DNA from: Opitutia bacterium
Lineage (GTDB): Bacteria > Verrucomicrobiota > Verrucomicrobiia > Opitutales > Opitutaceae
Direction: 5' to 3'
DNA: 64,000 bases
NCBI GenBank assembly: GCA_016187945.1
Contig: JACPIT010000005.1
Span: forward strand, 1,426,001 to 1,490,000
Position 1 is the stretch's first letter. Every line of letters starts with the position of its first letter. The notes beneath the pieces are model-generated. The model worked only from the letters and a program-made list of their open reading frames with translations. It was not told the origin of the DNA and ran no database searches. Made by a program: the position numbers and the translations under genes. Of this stretch, positions 4,801-39,951 are shown piece by piece.

Positions 4801-5766
4801 TCACGCGGCGCGGTGTTGGTGGTCGGCCTCCGGCGCAGCGCGACGGATGAGCGATGCGTGCGCGGCCCAGAGATAATCCCAGCGCCGGCCGCCGCGGTCG
4901 CGGAGCGTTTGCAGCGCGCGCTGGGCCTGGCGGGCGAGGCGCATCCAGCGTGCCTGCGCGCGTTCGCGGCCGAGGGCGAGCGCGAGATTGGGGCGGCTGA
5001 GGAGACGGTCGCGGCCGGTGGTCTTGCCGGTCGCCGCGGCGCTATCGAGCACATCGCTGAGATCATCGGCGATTTGGTAGAGTTGCCCCCAGTAAACGGC
5101 AAGGGCGGCGAGCGCGCGGCGCTCGATGCGGCTCGGGCGCGCGATCGCGGCCGGCAATTCGAGGGCGAGCGTGAGAAGCGCGCCGGTCTTGCCCGCCGCG
5201 ATGCGGCTGACGAGCGACGCGGGACGCTCGGTGGAAGCGAACGCCAGATCCCACGCCTGGCCGCCCACGAGCCCGGCGGCGCCGAGCGCGCGATCGAGCG
5301 CGGTCGCGGCGCGTTGGCGTGCGGCGCGGGTCTCGCGGGCGAACGCGGAGGCGACGAGCGCGTAGGCGCGGTTGATCAACGCGAGCGCCGCGAGGATGGC
5401 GGTGGCTTCGCCGTGGACGCGGTGCACGCAGAGCTGGTTGCGGCGCTGCACGGCGTCGTCCATGCACGGCAGATCGTCGAGGAGGAGCGAGGCGGTGTGA
5501 AAATACTCGACGGCGGTCGCGAGTTCGAGCGCCCGGGCGCGAGCGAGGCCGTGCGCGAGAGCGGCGGCGAGAACGAGGCGACCGCGAATCATTTTTCCCG
5601 GATGCGCGACGCATTGCCGCAGCGCCGCGAGCAGACGGGGTTCGCCGCGCGACGGGAGCGGGAGATGACGCTGCAACGCGGCCGGAAGCGCCCGCTCCGC
5701 GGCGGCGGCGGCGAGGCTGGCGCTCGGGCGGCGAGAGCGGGTGCGGCGGAGCGCGCGGGAGCTCAT
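4801..5766 (-). CDS. Polyprenyl (geranylgeranyl-type) diphosphate synthase
   Basis: A 321-residue trans-isoprenyl diphosphate synthase of the IspA/CrtE family, which condenses isopentenyl diphosphate onto an allylic primer. The first aspartate-rich motif is LLLDDLPCMDD (about residues 95-103), of the DDx4D form common in bacterial farnesyl and geranylgeranyl synthases. The second is QIADDLSD (about 232-239). GKMIRGRLVLAAA supplies the diphosphate-binding basic residues. The ATG at 5766 overlaps the YceI-like gene stop by ATGA, which decides the start. Coupling to a YceI-fold protein, a family known to bind isoprenoids including ubiquinone, suggests the product is a quinone side chain, haem farnesyl group or related lipid used by this operon. 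That link is inferred. Confidence 0.9.
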   Translation of the reverse strand: MSSRALRRTRSRRPSASLAAAAAERALPAALQRHLPLPSRGEPRLLAALRQCVAHPGKMIRGRLVLAAALAHGLARARALELATAVEYFHTASLLLDDLPCMDDAVQRRNQLCVHRVHGEATAILAALALINRAYALVASAFARETRAARQRAATALDRALGAAGLVGGQAWDLAFASTERPASLVSRIAAGKTGALLTLALELPAAIARPSRIERRALAALAVYWGQLYQIADDLSDVLDSAAATGKTTGRDRLLSRPNLALALGRERAQARWMRLARQAQRALQTLRDRGGRRWDYLWAAHASLIRRAAPEADHQHRAA

Positions 5767-6314
5767 GCCGCCTTCGCCTGGAAGTGGAAGCGGACGTGGA
5801 CGAGCGGGTCGACCTTCAGCGCGAGCATCAGGCGGATGACCGGCAGACCGTAGTCGCGCGTGTCGATCGCGGCATCGCCGTCGATCGCGTAGGTCGGGCC
5901 GTGCTGGCTGATCGTCACGGGAAAACGGAGCTCGCGCGTGACGCCGTGGAACGTGAACCGGCCGCGCGCCTCGGTCGCGCCGGCGGCGGCGTTCAGCGTG
6001 ACGAGCGTGAACTTCGCGTCGGGAAAATCGTCGGTGTGCTGCCATTCGTGCATCGCGGCATCGCGCTTCGGTTTGCCGGTGGCGACGTCGCGGAAGCGGA
6101 ACGCGAGCTCGGCGCCGGTGATGTGGCCGGCATCGTCGACCGTGCCGGTGAGAGCGTAGTTTTTGAGGGCGCCGACGAACGAATCGACCGTGGCCTTGAC
6201 CGCGACTTCGATGGTGGACTGGTCGCGGTCGAATTTCAGCGCGCGATCGGCGGCGGCGAGCGGCGCGGCGACGAGGGCCAGCGCCGCGAGCGAGAGAAGG
6301 AGGCGAGGGTTCAC
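5763..6314 (-). CDS. YceI-family periplasmic lipocalin-like protein
   Basis: A 183-residue exported protein. A GTG start at 6314 gives a clean signal peptide (PRLLLSLAALALVAAPLAAAD, read in two parts, cleavage near residue 24). The mature part begins LKFDRDQSTIEVAVKATVDSF, the typical YceI opening, and continues through FRDVATGKPKRDAAMHEW and RFTFHGVTREL, the repeated strand motifs of this beta-barrel family. Known members bind polyisoprenoids. It heads the minus-strand block and overlaps the polyprenyl synthase by ATGA. The ORF-track start at 6491 would place about 60 charged residues before the signal peptide and cross the hairpin at 6348, so the GTG is preferred. Confidence 0.88.
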   Translation of the reverse strand: MNPRLLLSLAALALVAAPLAAADRALKFDRDQSTIEVAVKATVDSFVGALKNYALTGTVDDAGHITGAELAFRFRDVATGKPKRDAAMHEWQHTDDFPDAKFTLVTLNAAAGATEARGRFTFHGVTRELRFPVTISQHGPTYAIDGDAAIDTRDYGLPVIRLMLALKVDPLVHVRFHFQAKAA

Positions 6315-32164: not shown

Positions 32165-35100
32165 ATGAACTCACCCCGCCCGTTCGCCTTCCGCGGCGCC
32201 GTCTTTGCCGCGTCGTTTCTCGCCGCCACCTTCGCGCCCGCCCAGACCGCGGTCTCGTCTTTGGACGAGAAATCCAAGTCCGAGGAACCGCTTCAGCTCA
32301 GCCCGTTCGTCGTCAAAGCGGATCACGACACCGGCTACACCGCCACCGATTCGCTCGCCGGCACGCGCCTGCGCACGCCGCTCAAGGACATTGCGGCGTC
32401 GGTGAGCGTCGTCACCAAAGACCTGATGGACGACCTCGGCGCCAAGGGCTCGGCCGATCTGCTCGTCTACACCACCGGCACGGAAGTCGTCGGCGTCGGC
32501 GGCAACTACTCCGGCTCCACGCAGGAAACTGCCGCGCAGACCTTCGATCCGGTGCGCGAGTCGACGAGTCCCACCACGCGCGTGCGCGGCCTCGCCGCCG
32601 CCGATGAGACGCGCAACTACTTCCTCACGCCCGGCATCCCGTTCGATTCCTACAACACCCAGAGCGTGACCCTGAATCGCGGCGCCAACTCCATCCTCTT
32701 CGGCTTCGGCAGTCCCGCGGGCATCATCGAGAACACCCTCATCGCGCCGGTCTTCAAAGACAGAACCCAGGTCAAGGTCTCCGCCGGCAGCTACGGCACT
32801 TACCGGCAGTCGCTCGATTTCGAGCGCGTCATCATCCCCGGCAAGCTCTCCCTGCGCCTCGCGCAACTCGACGACAACCGCCGCTACGAGCAGGACTTCA
32901 CCTTCCGCGACCAGGAGCGCTATTTCGCCTCCGCCACCTACCAGCCGTTCCGCAACACCACGCTGCGCGTCAACGCCGAGCACGGCCACCTCGACCAGCG
33001 CATGCCGCGCGTCGATCCGCCGGTCGACAGCCTGACGACGTGGTGGGACTTCGGAAAGCCGACCCGCGACAACAACTTCACCTCCACCGCCACGAAGAAC
33101 TACCAGCGCGCCAATAATCTCGACGGCATGGCCGGCAACTGGTCGCAAAACGTCGGCCTGGTTTATTACGGCTCCGACCAAGGCAACCCGAGTGACGCCC
33201 TCGTGCCCTACGCGACCGCGCCGGGCATCACCTATCGCTTCCTCGCTCCGCGCAGCAGCCAGGAAATCGCCGCCAGCGTCACCGCGAATCCGCTCGCGGG
33301 TTTCATGGTCGGCAAGCAGCTCATCGATCGCTCGATCTTCGATTACCGCAAGCAACTCCTCGACGGCCCGAACAGCGGCACGTGGATGGATTTCGACACC
33401 CAGAACGTCGCCCTCGAGCAGCTCTTCCTCGACGGCGACGCCGGCGTCGAACTCGTCTACGACCACCAGCAAGCCGACTCGTCCGTGCTCCGCGGCATCA
33501 GCAACAGCTATCGCGGCAACAACATCTTCATCGACGTCAACACCGTCACCACCGACGGCCGCCCGAATCCGAACTTCGGCCGTCCCTTCATCGCGTCGAA
33601 CGGCTTCTTTTATCTCTACGACAACGAATACGAGACCAGCCGCGCGACCGCGTTTCTGCGCCACGACTTCACGAAGCACGGCAAGGGTTTCCTCTGGCGC
33701 CTTCTCGGCAAGCAAACGGTCACGGGCATGTTCTCCGACTTCAAGCGCGAGCAATACACGCTGTCCGGCTACCCGCAGGTCGTCGGCCCCGCATTCCGCG
33801 ACGGTCTGAACGGCAACACCATCTCGACCAGCCGCAAGATCACGAGCGTCGTCTACCTCGGGCCGTCGATGGCGAACCTGGCGAGCCCCACCGGCGCCAA
33901 CCTCCAAGGCGTGCAGACCGAGCTCCTCGTCCCCGACACCGTCAACGTCATGGTCGAGAACGTCGGCACCGGCTACGCGTGGACACGCCAGAGCGTGCCG
34001 ACCTACACCTACCTCGACGATCTGCCCTGGCTCGTCACCGGCAACACCGCGCTCTCCAATCGCGCCAAATCCAACGCGCTCATCTGGCAGGGCGACTGGT
34101 GGAGCAACCACCTCGTCTCCATCCTCGGCTGGCGCCGCGACGAAGTGGAAAGCGCCAGCGGCACCAACTCGACGACCGACCCGACCACCGGCGCCCGCAC
34201 GCTCGATCGCCCGATCTTCGGTGAACCGCTCACCACCAAACGCAGCACGTTCAGCTACGGCCTCGCCCTGCACGTTCCGACGCGCTGGCTGGAGAAAATT
34301 CCCAGCCGGCCCGCGCTGTCGCTCTACTACAACCAGTCCGAGAACTTCGACGTCTCCGCCGGCGCGCGCTACAACATCCTCGGCGACTACCTCGCTCCGC
34401 AGGAAGGCAGCACGCAGGAATACGGTCTCGGCGTCCGCTTGTTCAACGACCGCCTCACGCTCCGCGCCACGCGCTACGAGACCACGCAGGACAACATGAC
34501 CGATTCACGCGTCTCCGGCGTGCTCGTCCGCGTCGTCGACCTCGAGGCGCGCATCACCGCCTCACTCTCCAAGTCCTTTCTCGATTCCATCGGCTACGTC
34601 GGCTTCGACAGCCCGCAAGCCTCCGAGACGTTCAAGCGCTACCTCGCGAACTACGACTTCTCGGTCGGCGCCGTCCGCTCCGACGGCACGCGCAACGCCG
34701 AATACTCCGGCCCCGCCGCCACGGTCGAAACCACCAGCTCCGTCTCGAAGGGTTACGAGTTCGAGGCCGTCTTCAACGCGACGCGCAACTGGCGCATGGC
34801 CCTGAACGTCGCGAAACAGGAGGCCGTCCGCGGCGACACCAGCCCGATCCTCACCGCGCTCGTCGCCGAGCGTCTCGAACAATGGAAAAATCCCGCGCTC
34901 TGGCCGCTCACCCTCGCCGGCGGCGTGCAGCGCGTCGATTCCTATGCGACCACCTACATGATCAACCCGCTGACGACCGCGAAGCTCTCGATCGGCGAGC
35001 GCACGCCCGAGCTCCGCGAGTGGCGCGCCAACTTTGTCACGAACTACACCTTCGACCGCGACTCGCGCCTCAAGGGCTGGGGCATCGGCGGCGCCGTCCG

Positions 35101-35416
35101 CTGGCAGGACAAAGTTTCGATCGGTTACCCGGTCATCAACGACCCCGCGCTCGGCCTCGTCACCGACGTGAAGCACCCGTTCATGGGCCCGGATCAAACC
35201 TACTTCGACGGCTGGGTCAGCTACCAGCGCAAGCTCTGGCACAACAAGGTCGGCTGGAAAATCCAGCTCAATGTCCGAAATCTCCTCAACGACAACCTCA
35301 TGATCCCCGTGAAGGCGAACCCCGTCACCGTCGGCGATCTCAACACCTACGACATCGCCGCCTGGCGCATCGGCGAAGCGCGCACGTGGGAGATCAGCTC
35401 GACGTTCTCATTCTGA
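32165..35416 (+). CDS. TonB-dependent receptor of the rhamnoside locus
   Basis: A 1083-residue outer-membrane receptor. A signal peptide (residues 1-26, ending TFAPAQ) precedes a short linker with LQLSPFVVKADHDTGYTATDSLAGTR (read in parts), typical of Opitutus-type receptors. The plug (about 45-200) includes ASVSVVTKDLMDDLG, TRVRGLAAADETRN and VTLNRGANSILFGFGSPAG. The barrel ends RTWEISSTFSF with the expected terminal Phe. Following genes encode a TagC-like protein, a rhamnosidase, RhaT and a second rhamnosidase family, so rhamnose-containing oligosaccharides are the likely ligand. The inverted repeat at 32098 lies just upstream. Confidence 0.93.
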   Translation: MNSPRPFAFRGAVFAASFLAATFAPAQTAVSSLDEKSKSEEPLQLSPFVVKADHDTGYTATDSLAGTRLRTPLKDIAASVSVVTKDLMDDLGAKGSADLLVYTTGTEVVGVGGNYSGSTQETAAQTFDPVRESTSPTTRVRGLAAADETRNYFLTPGIPFDSYNTQSVTLNRGANSILFGFGSPAGIIENTLIAPVFKDRTQVKVSAGSYGTYRQSLDFERVIIPGKLSLRLAQLDDNRRYEQDFTFRDQERYFASATYQPFRNTTLRVNAEHGHLDQRMPRVDPPVDSLTTWWDFGKPTRDNNFTSTATKNYQRANNLDGMAGNWSQNVGLVYYGSDQGNPSDALVPYATAPGITYRFLAPRSSQEIAASVTANPLAGFMVGKQLIDRSIFDYRKQLLDGPNSGTWMDFDTQNVALEQLFLDGDAGVELVYDHQQADSSVLRGISNSYRGNNIFIDVNTVTTDGRPNPNFGRPFIASNGFFYLYDNEYETSRATAFLRHDFTKHGKGFLWRLLGKQTVTGMFSDFKREQYTLSGYPQVVGPAFRDGLNGNTISTSRKITSVVYLGPSMANLASPTGANLQGVQTELLVPDTVNVMVENVGTGYAWTRQSVPTYTYLDDLPWLVTGNTALSNRAKSNALIWQGDWWSNHLVSILGWRRDEVESASGTNSTTDPTTGARTLDRPIFGEPLTTKRSTFSYGLALHVPTRWLEKIPSRPALSLYYNQSENFDVSAGARYNILGDYLAPQEGSTQEYGLGVRLFNDRLTLRATRYETTQDNMTDSRVSGVLVRVVDLEARITASLSKSFLDSIGYVGFDSPQASETFKRYLANYDFSVGAVRSDGTRNAEYSGPAATVETTSSVSKGYEFEAVFNATRNWRMALNVAKQEAVRGDTSPILTALVAERLEQWKNPALWPLTLAGGVQRVDSYATTYMINPLTTAKLSIGERTPELREWRANFVTNYTFDRDSRLKGWGIGGAVRWQDKVSIGYPVINDPALGLVTDVKHPFMGPDQTYFDGWVSYQRKLWHNKVGWKIQLNVRNLLNDNLMIPVKANPVTVGDLNTYDIAAWRIGEARTWEISSTFSF

Positions 35417-35427
35417 GACCGCGCGTC

Positions 35428-35451
35428 GTAGCAGCCGGCGTCAGCCGGCTG
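35428..35451 (+). repeat. REP-like palindrome starting GTAG
   Basis: GTAG is followed by CAGCCGGC-GTCA-GCCGGCTG, a perfect 8-bp stem with a 4-nt loop. The GTAG tetranucleotide plus short palindrome is the standard form of REP sequences mobilised by RAYT transposases. It lies 12 nt after the receptor stop. Confidence 0.65.
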
Positions 35452-35495: not shown

Positions 35496-35565
35496 TCTTT
35501 CGCGAAACCTCCTCGGCTCCCCAACCGCCATGGCGCTCCCGTTTCTAGCCCTGATATTTCACCGT

Positions 35566-35627
35566 GTAGCGGAAGCCGTGAGGCTTTCGCGAGCGGCGAA
35601 CCGCGAAATTCTCACGAATTCCGCTAC
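35566..35627. repeat. REPIN: two inverted GTAG-type REPs
   Basis: Left REP: GTAG, CGGAAGCC-GTGA-GGCTTTCG. Right REP on the other strand: GTAG, CGGAATTC-GTGA-GAATTTCG. The two share ends, loop and outer stem but differ in three inner stem pairs. Those changes occur on both sides, so pairing is kept. A 14-nt spacer separates them. It lies 47-108 nt before the TagC-like gene start. Confidence 0.8.
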
Positions 35628-35673
35628 CACGCTGCGCACGTCGCGCCGTTCCGGTTGTGAACGATGCGGACTA

Positions 35674-36654
35674 ATGATCCTGACGGCGCTCGCGCTCGCC
35701 GCGAGCCCAACCGGCGCGGAAACGCCGCTGCCGCTTCCGCCCACCGGCCGTTTCGATCTGCAGGCCGAGCCGCACGTCGTCTTCCTCGGGCAGTGGCTGC
35801 ATGACCGGCGCCACGTGCCGCAGTCGTTCGCCTTCGACGACGCGAACGGCTTTCTCTACACGCTTCAAGTCGAAGGAGCCAACGCCGCCGGCACCTTCGA
35901 GGAGCACGGCCGGCGCGGCGATCTGACGCTCACGAAACTCGCGCGCGACGGTCGCACCATTGCCGGTCACATGACGCTGCGTGGATTCGGCCACGGCGTC
36001 GCGCTGGGCATCGAACCGGTCGGCCGCGACGTGTTTCTCTGGACCGAAGTCGATTCGCAGCCGAACGACAACGCCAGCGGTCGCGGCACGCGCATCGGTC
36101 GTTTCCGGTTCGAGTCGGGCGCGACGCTCGATACCGCATCGCCGAAAATCGAGAAATTCGATCTCATGCCCGGCGCGCACACCTGCACCCCGAGCCTCGA
36201 TCTGACGCATGGCCGCCTTGCGCTGCGTCACGTGCGCGACGGCGAAATGCGCGTGACGCTCTACAACCTCGCCTCCGTGGCATCCGGTCGCAGTCGCACG
36301 CCGCCGCTGCGTGAGATTTCGCTGCAATTGCCCTTCGGAACCGTGCAGGGCTGGTGCACCTACGGCAGCTACGTTTACGTGCTCGCCGGCCAGGCTTACG
36401 GTCCGAAAAACCCGCCGCCCGGCAACGCGACCGTGTGGTGCCTCGACTGGAGCACCGGCGCCGTCGTCGATCACGAGCCCGTGCGCGCGCTCGCCGATCT
36501 CGCCTATCGCGAGCCGGAAGGCATCGCGGTGCAGGTGCTCGACGGTGTGCCGCGTCTCTGCATCGGCTTCGGCGCCTCGGTGTCGGCGCACGACTCGCGG
36601 CGCCAGCTCAGCGTCGTCGCCTTCCCAAAATTTCTTCCCGCCACAACGCCATGA
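35674..36654 (+). CDS. TagC-like beta-propeller protein
   Basis: A 326-residue protein. QSFAFDDANGFLYTLQVEG, GDLTLTKLARDG, MTLRGFGHGVALGIEPVG and DVFLWTEVDS match the P68-RBP/TagC-like propeller family (often labelled teichoic acid biosynthesis protein C), which includes phage receptor-binding and secreted proteins. No catalytic residues are known for it. The start at ATG 35674 gives a short hydrophobic stretch (MILTALALAASPTGAE) that may be a clipped signal peptide; the track start at 34882 belongs to the antisense/other frame of the receptor. The gene overlaps the GH78 gene by ATGA, so the product is probably needed with rhamnosidase, perhaps for binding a rhamnose polymer. Confidence 0.7.
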   Translation: MILTALALAASPTGAETPLPLPPTGRFDLQAEPHVVFLGQWLHDRRHVPQSFAFDDANGFLYTLQVEGANAAGTFEEHGRRGDLTLTKLARDGRTIAGHMTLRGFGHGVALGIEPVGRDVFLWTEVDSQPNDNASGRGTRIGRFRFESGATLDTASPKIEKFDLMPGAHTCTPSLDLTHGRLALRHVRDGEMRVTLYNLASVASGRSRTPPLREISLQLPFGTVQGWCTYGSYVYVLAGQAYGPKNPPPGNATVWCLDWSTGAVVDHEPVRALADLAYREPEGIAVQVLDGVPRLCIGFGASVSAHDSRRQLSVVAFPKFLPATTP

Positions 36655-39818: not shown

Positions 39819-39847
39819 GCAACAGAAGAAGAGTGCCGTTGATGGAG

Positions 39848-39911
39848 GTAGGGCGGGACCGCTGGGCCCGCCGCGAACGAGTTTTCGGCGCGACCAGCGG
39901 TCCCGCCCTAC
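39848..39911. repeat. REPIN with long perfect arms
   Basis: Two inverted GTAG-starting elements, each GTAG then GGCGGGACC-GCT-GG, face each other. Including flanking bases, the outer arms (39845-39865 and 39894-39914) match perfectly over 21 bp around a 28-nt spacer. Each half is itself an imperfect hairpin. It lies between the GH78 stop and rhaT, where it may also protect or terminate the upstream mRNA. Confidence 0.75.
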
Positions 39912-39951
39912 CTCAAACGCGGAGCGTTCATCCTTTCCGTAGTTCCGCGTC

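Follow-up and report, generated by a model that had tools for sequence, protein, structure and literature searches.

Organisation of the locus

Within the window, by which we mean the whole 64,000-nucleotide stretch of Opitutia bacterium DNA that was analysed, a TonB-dependent receptor-like gene (32165-35416; weak matches to siderophore-receptor models) ends upstream of a REPIN at 35566-35627, and an open reading frame of the same direction begins on its other side with an ATG at 35674. The REPIN consists of two REP arms arranged head-to-head: a GCC/GGC-type arm on the plus strand (35566-35590), composed of GTA, a 9-bp stem and a GTGA loop, and a TTC/GAA-type arm on the minus strand (35603-35627), separated by a 12-nt spacer (35591-35602). 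Both arms were found to match exactly the 25-nt pattern GTAGCGGAANNCGTGAGNNTTTCGC, for which no match was expected by chance (100 shuffles), so that the REPIN recognised at these positions in a preliminary description of the window was confirmed. The same description had reported identical GTAG ends, GTGA loops and outer stems in the two REPs, in agreement with the sequence, together with three differing inner stem pairs (GCC/GGC versus TTC/GAA). The differences are indeed paired, but they affect two pairs only, REP positions 10-19 and 11-18, the third inner pair (12-17, C-G) being identical in both arms.

Folded as single-stranded DNA, the 25-nt arms gave z-scores of -4.6 and -5.1 relative to shuffled sequences, and the 62-nt unit a z-score of -4.95. 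The predicted fold of each arm was a hairpin of 9 bp closed by a GTGA loop and including one G.T pair, a wobble in the outer stem (7-22). On the complementary strands this pair becomes A.C, which lowers the stability of the fold. The whole unit could also be folded as a single long hairpin, interrupted by two internal loops at the positions of the arm differences.

Two further repeats were observed in the window. On the plus strand at 35428-35451 lies a lone REP from a different family, GTAGCAGCCGGC GTCA GCCGGCTG, which resembles repeats found beside the second related RAYT of the same genome (C2:366162). At 39845-39914, a 34-nt inverted repeat (GAGGTAGGGCGGGACCGCTGG..; 88% complementary, 2-nt gap) may belong to another palindromic repeat family.

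Covariation and unlike arms in the REP family

Searching the window's own genome (5.47 Mb, 16 contigs) with up to 3 mismatches recovered 82+77 (about 159) REP sites, compared to 1 in the reversed control, and 44 scattered inverted head-to-head pairs of this one family with short spacers, compared to 0 in the reversed control. The GTAG tag stood directly before the near-perfect hairpin in 114/127 own-genome arms. The family was present in 8 of the 57 genomes searched (own genome and relatives). Two planctomycete records also matched, as did named Opitutaceae and other Verrucomicrobia MAGs. One of the genomes, G015, carries 24 REPs of the window family, and none of the Y1 genes checked there was flanked by them.

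Stem covariation was analysed in 127 own-genome arms in distinct contexts. Both inner pairs were intact in 115 of these, compared to a mean of 41 and a maximum of 56 when 3' halves were re-dealt, and in 192/214 arms from other genomes (re-dealt maximum 83), these counts being non-independent as copies are related by shared ancestry. On distinct sequences, pairing was retained in 90% (own genome) and 87% (other genomes), versus 29-52% with the partner slid by 1-3 positions. Own-genome changes at the two pairs were two-sided in 28 and 24 cases, one-sided in 1 and 1, and broken in 6 and 6. The common inner stems were TTC/GAA, GCC/GGC, ACC/GGT and CGC/GCG, while the GTAG tag, the loop (GTGA, GTCA or GTAA) and the 7-22 wobble were near-constant across copies. 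The preliminary proposal that pairing is preserved by compensatory change was thus upheld once the genome copies had been gathered, and a search for copies that vary without pairing found an inner pair broken in only 12/127 own-genome arms.

Two unlike arms were present in 43 of the 44 REPINs, nearly every copy combining a TTC arm with a GCC or ACC arm. Same-type arms occurred once, compared to a mean of 11.4 under random assortment (1/28 versus 9.4 excluding the ACC class). The arm difference in the window is therefore the standard architecture of the family and not a divergence of the two arms at this site. Heterodimers have been described earlier in many GTAG families (PMC3733652). In silico, unlike arms lowered the stability of the long hairpin from between -32 and -35 to a mean of -19.5 kcal/mol and left the single hairpins unaltered, with the long form still the minimum; unlike arms may thereby weaken the whole-unit hairpin while each REP hairpin is preserved. 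The sole same-arm REPIN (L224:1501-1557, C9:259561; 57 bp) lies in frame within an RND-type transporter gene, adding about 17 residues absent from 14 homologues.

This organisation resembles that described for Pseudomonas fluorescens REPINs (Bertels and Rainey 2011, PMC3116915): REPs occur as inverted pairs, the spacer is less conserved than the arms, a cognate RAYT is present and changes are compensatory. The window family differs in its REP sequence, in its shorter spacer, in having unlike arms in nearly every copy and in a subfamily lying within IS1380-type ends. By the features described in Di Nocera 2013 (PMC3733652), a text without sequences, the family is also like the GTAG-class REP dimers that include families of Opitutus terrae, a member of the same bacterial family, sharing the GTAG tag, head-to-head heterodimers and subfamilies with alternative complementary stem residues.

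A probable cognate RAYT-like gene and the age of the population

The preliminary description had advised looking for a RAYT gene, and an open one was found amid REPs of the window family. A match to profile NF047646 at C1:327282-327635 lies within P0001, a 232-aa open frame on the minus strand (G000:C1:327039-327737) carrying both the HUH motif (PDHAHF) and the catalytic tyrosine motif (YIWENPVRAGLV) of Y1 transposases. P0001 scored below the family cut-off (50.2 bits versus 80 for NF047646; 15.6 versus 23 for Pfam Y1_Tnp), and is named RAYT-like by its motifs and context because its subfamily is divergent. Comparison of P0001 with PDB sequences gave chance-level matches only (TnpArep 4er8, E 0.83). 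REPs of the window family lie on both sides of the gene, one or two of them identical to window arm 1. In another genome, a RAYT at locus L168, 68% identical to P0001, lies among six such REPs, and a RAYT at L129 (48% identical) adjoins one.

RAYT-like genes number 12 in the own genome (loci L260, L262, L263 and others), and several of them are accompanied by distinct palindromes. A PF01797 search missed P0001, which NF047646 recovered; the 8 other RAYT-like genes of that search were rejected as cognate, having no window-family REP within 1.5 kb. At locus L267, the 3'-terminal coding part of the RAYT gene includes a REP (5146-5170; residues SGENLTVSAT), and a REP variant near the RAYT (about 5853-5875; GTAGCGAAATCGTCAGATTTCGC) lacks one stem base pair, both partners being gone.

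The GTAG repeats that flank sister RAYTs (in G022, G013 and G036, and a second copy in the own genome) share this kind of loop but have other stems, which agrees with published binding data for a group 3 enzyme (PMC8266576). The requirements of that enzyme, the Group 3 TnpA-REP of Stenotrophomonas maltophilia, are a GTAG tag, a G at the first loop position and an unbroken stem of fairly free sequence (PMC8266576). Its REPs are likewise perfect palindromes with a GTAG tag, and have a 3-nt loop, compared to the 4-nt GTNA loop of the window family. The REP family may serve as a natural record of what the RAYT probably reads, with tag and loop fixed and the stem changing in pairs, a record of stem changes seen both inside one genome and among sister RAYTs.

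Comparison with G007, a genome of the same genus that is 84-90% identical to the own genome in many REPIN flanks, gave 4 REP matches versus 147 in the own genome by the same search. Two sites with a REPIN in the own genome were empty in G007 (C9:30716 and C1:279737), and one decayed REPIN copy was common to both genomes (C9:299593). The low count and the empty sites indicate that the REP expansion is largely specific to the own lineage. Together with the open, motif-bearing RAYT frame, they lend only indirect support to the earlier proposal, by which the REPIN population may be active or recently active.

Three free REPINs (L270:4738-4801 at C1:279737, L220:1501-1556 at C9:30716 and L270:9416-9477 at C1:284415) occupy positions at which two genes of G007 overlap by an ATGA stop/start, and in the own genome ATGA flanks the REPIN on either side. 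At C1:279737 both REPIN flanks match the same approximately 38 bp of G007. These gene-boundary sites suggest a long target duplication (25-40 bp), which we do not claim; such a duplication is, to our knowledge, not expected of Y1 HUH enzymes.

A REPIN subfamily within an IS1380-type MITE

A feature missed in the preliminary description is that the window REPIN forms the centre of a composite of 122 bp (35549-35670), one of a set of elements bounded by the consensus CCCGGATATTTCACC at the start and the inverse of that sequence at the end. Twenty-one copies, including that of the window, were identified, 18 of them exactly 122 bp long. Their flanking 4-bp duplications matched at 62/84 positions, compared to 44.7 when re-paired, and YTAR-like sites were present at the flanks of most of the 21 copies. 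The unit is made up by ACC/TTC REPINs, whose common flanks extend well past the arms, and most GCC-type REPINs were without composite edges. In the window, the left YTAR-like target duplication, CTAG (35545-35548), is followed on the plus strand by the left terminal inverted repeat CCCTGATATTTCACC (35549-35563; 14/15 to the consensus). By comparison with the consensus, the inner right part (35628-35655) is partly decayed and the right terminal inverted repeat on the minus strand (35656-35670; 10/15) is decayed. The right duplication, CTAA (35671-35674), matches CTAG at 3/4 positions and ends on the first letter of the ATG at 35674.

Over 35628-35674 the window composite was identical to the consensus at 29/47 positions (shuffled mean 12.7). 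Its arms differed from the composite consensus by one compensated pair and nothing else, the right outer part and the spacer, identical to that of ACC-type composites at 4/12 positions, having changed far more. It follows that, as the remainder of the window element decayed, its hairpins were either retained or restored through exchange with other copies.

The own genome carries an IS1380 transposase gene (NF033539, 394 bits) with ends matching the composite. Six contig ends of the assembly carry the inverted repeat of the composite, one of them running into an IS1380 transposase gene, as expected because a multicopy IS breaks the assembly. The composites thus share CCCGGATATTTCACC-type terminal repeats with the genome's IS1380 element at contig junctions and, as in IS1380-derived MITEs, combine matching ends with a fixed short length and a 4-bp YTAR-like duplication; they differ from such MITEs in having a REPIN as core. 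As the window copy lies within an IS1380-type MITE, RAYT need not have been responsible for its spread; the probable agent is IS1380. A literature search of incomplete coverage found no report of a REPIN/MITE composite with IS1380 ends, and the available part of Di Nocera 2013 does not describe MITE enclosure of GTAG-class dimers (PMC3733652).

Two mobility systems are thus nested, and we consider it likely that the RAYT spread the free REPINs and that the IS1380 transposase multiplied the composite in trans. The RAYT, as a Y1 HUH nuclease, would recognise single-stranded REPs by their GTAG tag, GTNA loop and paired stem, which would permit only paired changes of stem bases. After the RAYT had spread free REPINs, one REPIN would have become enclosed between IS1380-type ends and the composite would then have been multiplied by the IS1380 transposase, the window copy being an older, partly decayed member. 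More tentatively, the REPIN may have two owners, its single-stranded hairpins being processed by the RAYT and its double-stranded DNA being moved by the IS1380 transposase via the outer ends; if true, copy number would be set by two unrelated transposases.

Spread by RAYT only, with the outer inverted repeats a wider conserved edge of one subfamily, would accord with the published model, in which RAYT spreads REPINs, and with the lack of such edges in most GCC-type REPINs. We regard it as unlikely here, given outer ends that match the own-genome IS1380 element, a constant length of 122 bp and the presence of a 4-bp duplication. We know of no HUH transposition that leaves a 4-bp target duplication. 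It is less probable still that stem pairing owes its retention to an RNA role (terminator, attenuator or mRNA-stabilising hairpin) instead of a transposase: the element does lie between two same-direction genes and G.T pairs are usable in RNA, but tag and loop are fixed as well, RAYT genes stand among the same repeats in several genomes, and copies are scattered in both orientations. That the 12-nt spacer is host DNA between separately inserted REPs was rejected as very improbable: GCC-type spacers show hardly any relatedness to one another (mean identity 0.376, against 0.313 for the composition null) between near-identical arms, but the spacer is absent from the orthologous G007 DNA at both clear empty sites.

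With the nested arrangement as the preferred reading, this is a known kind of REPIN/RAYT system whose covariation signal is well supported; what is new is a REPIN subfamily, the window copy included, enclosed in an IS1380-type MITE. Estimates of RAYT activity and of selection on REPINs draw on REPIN copy number and conservation, and need correction if some members of a REPIN population are MITE cargo.
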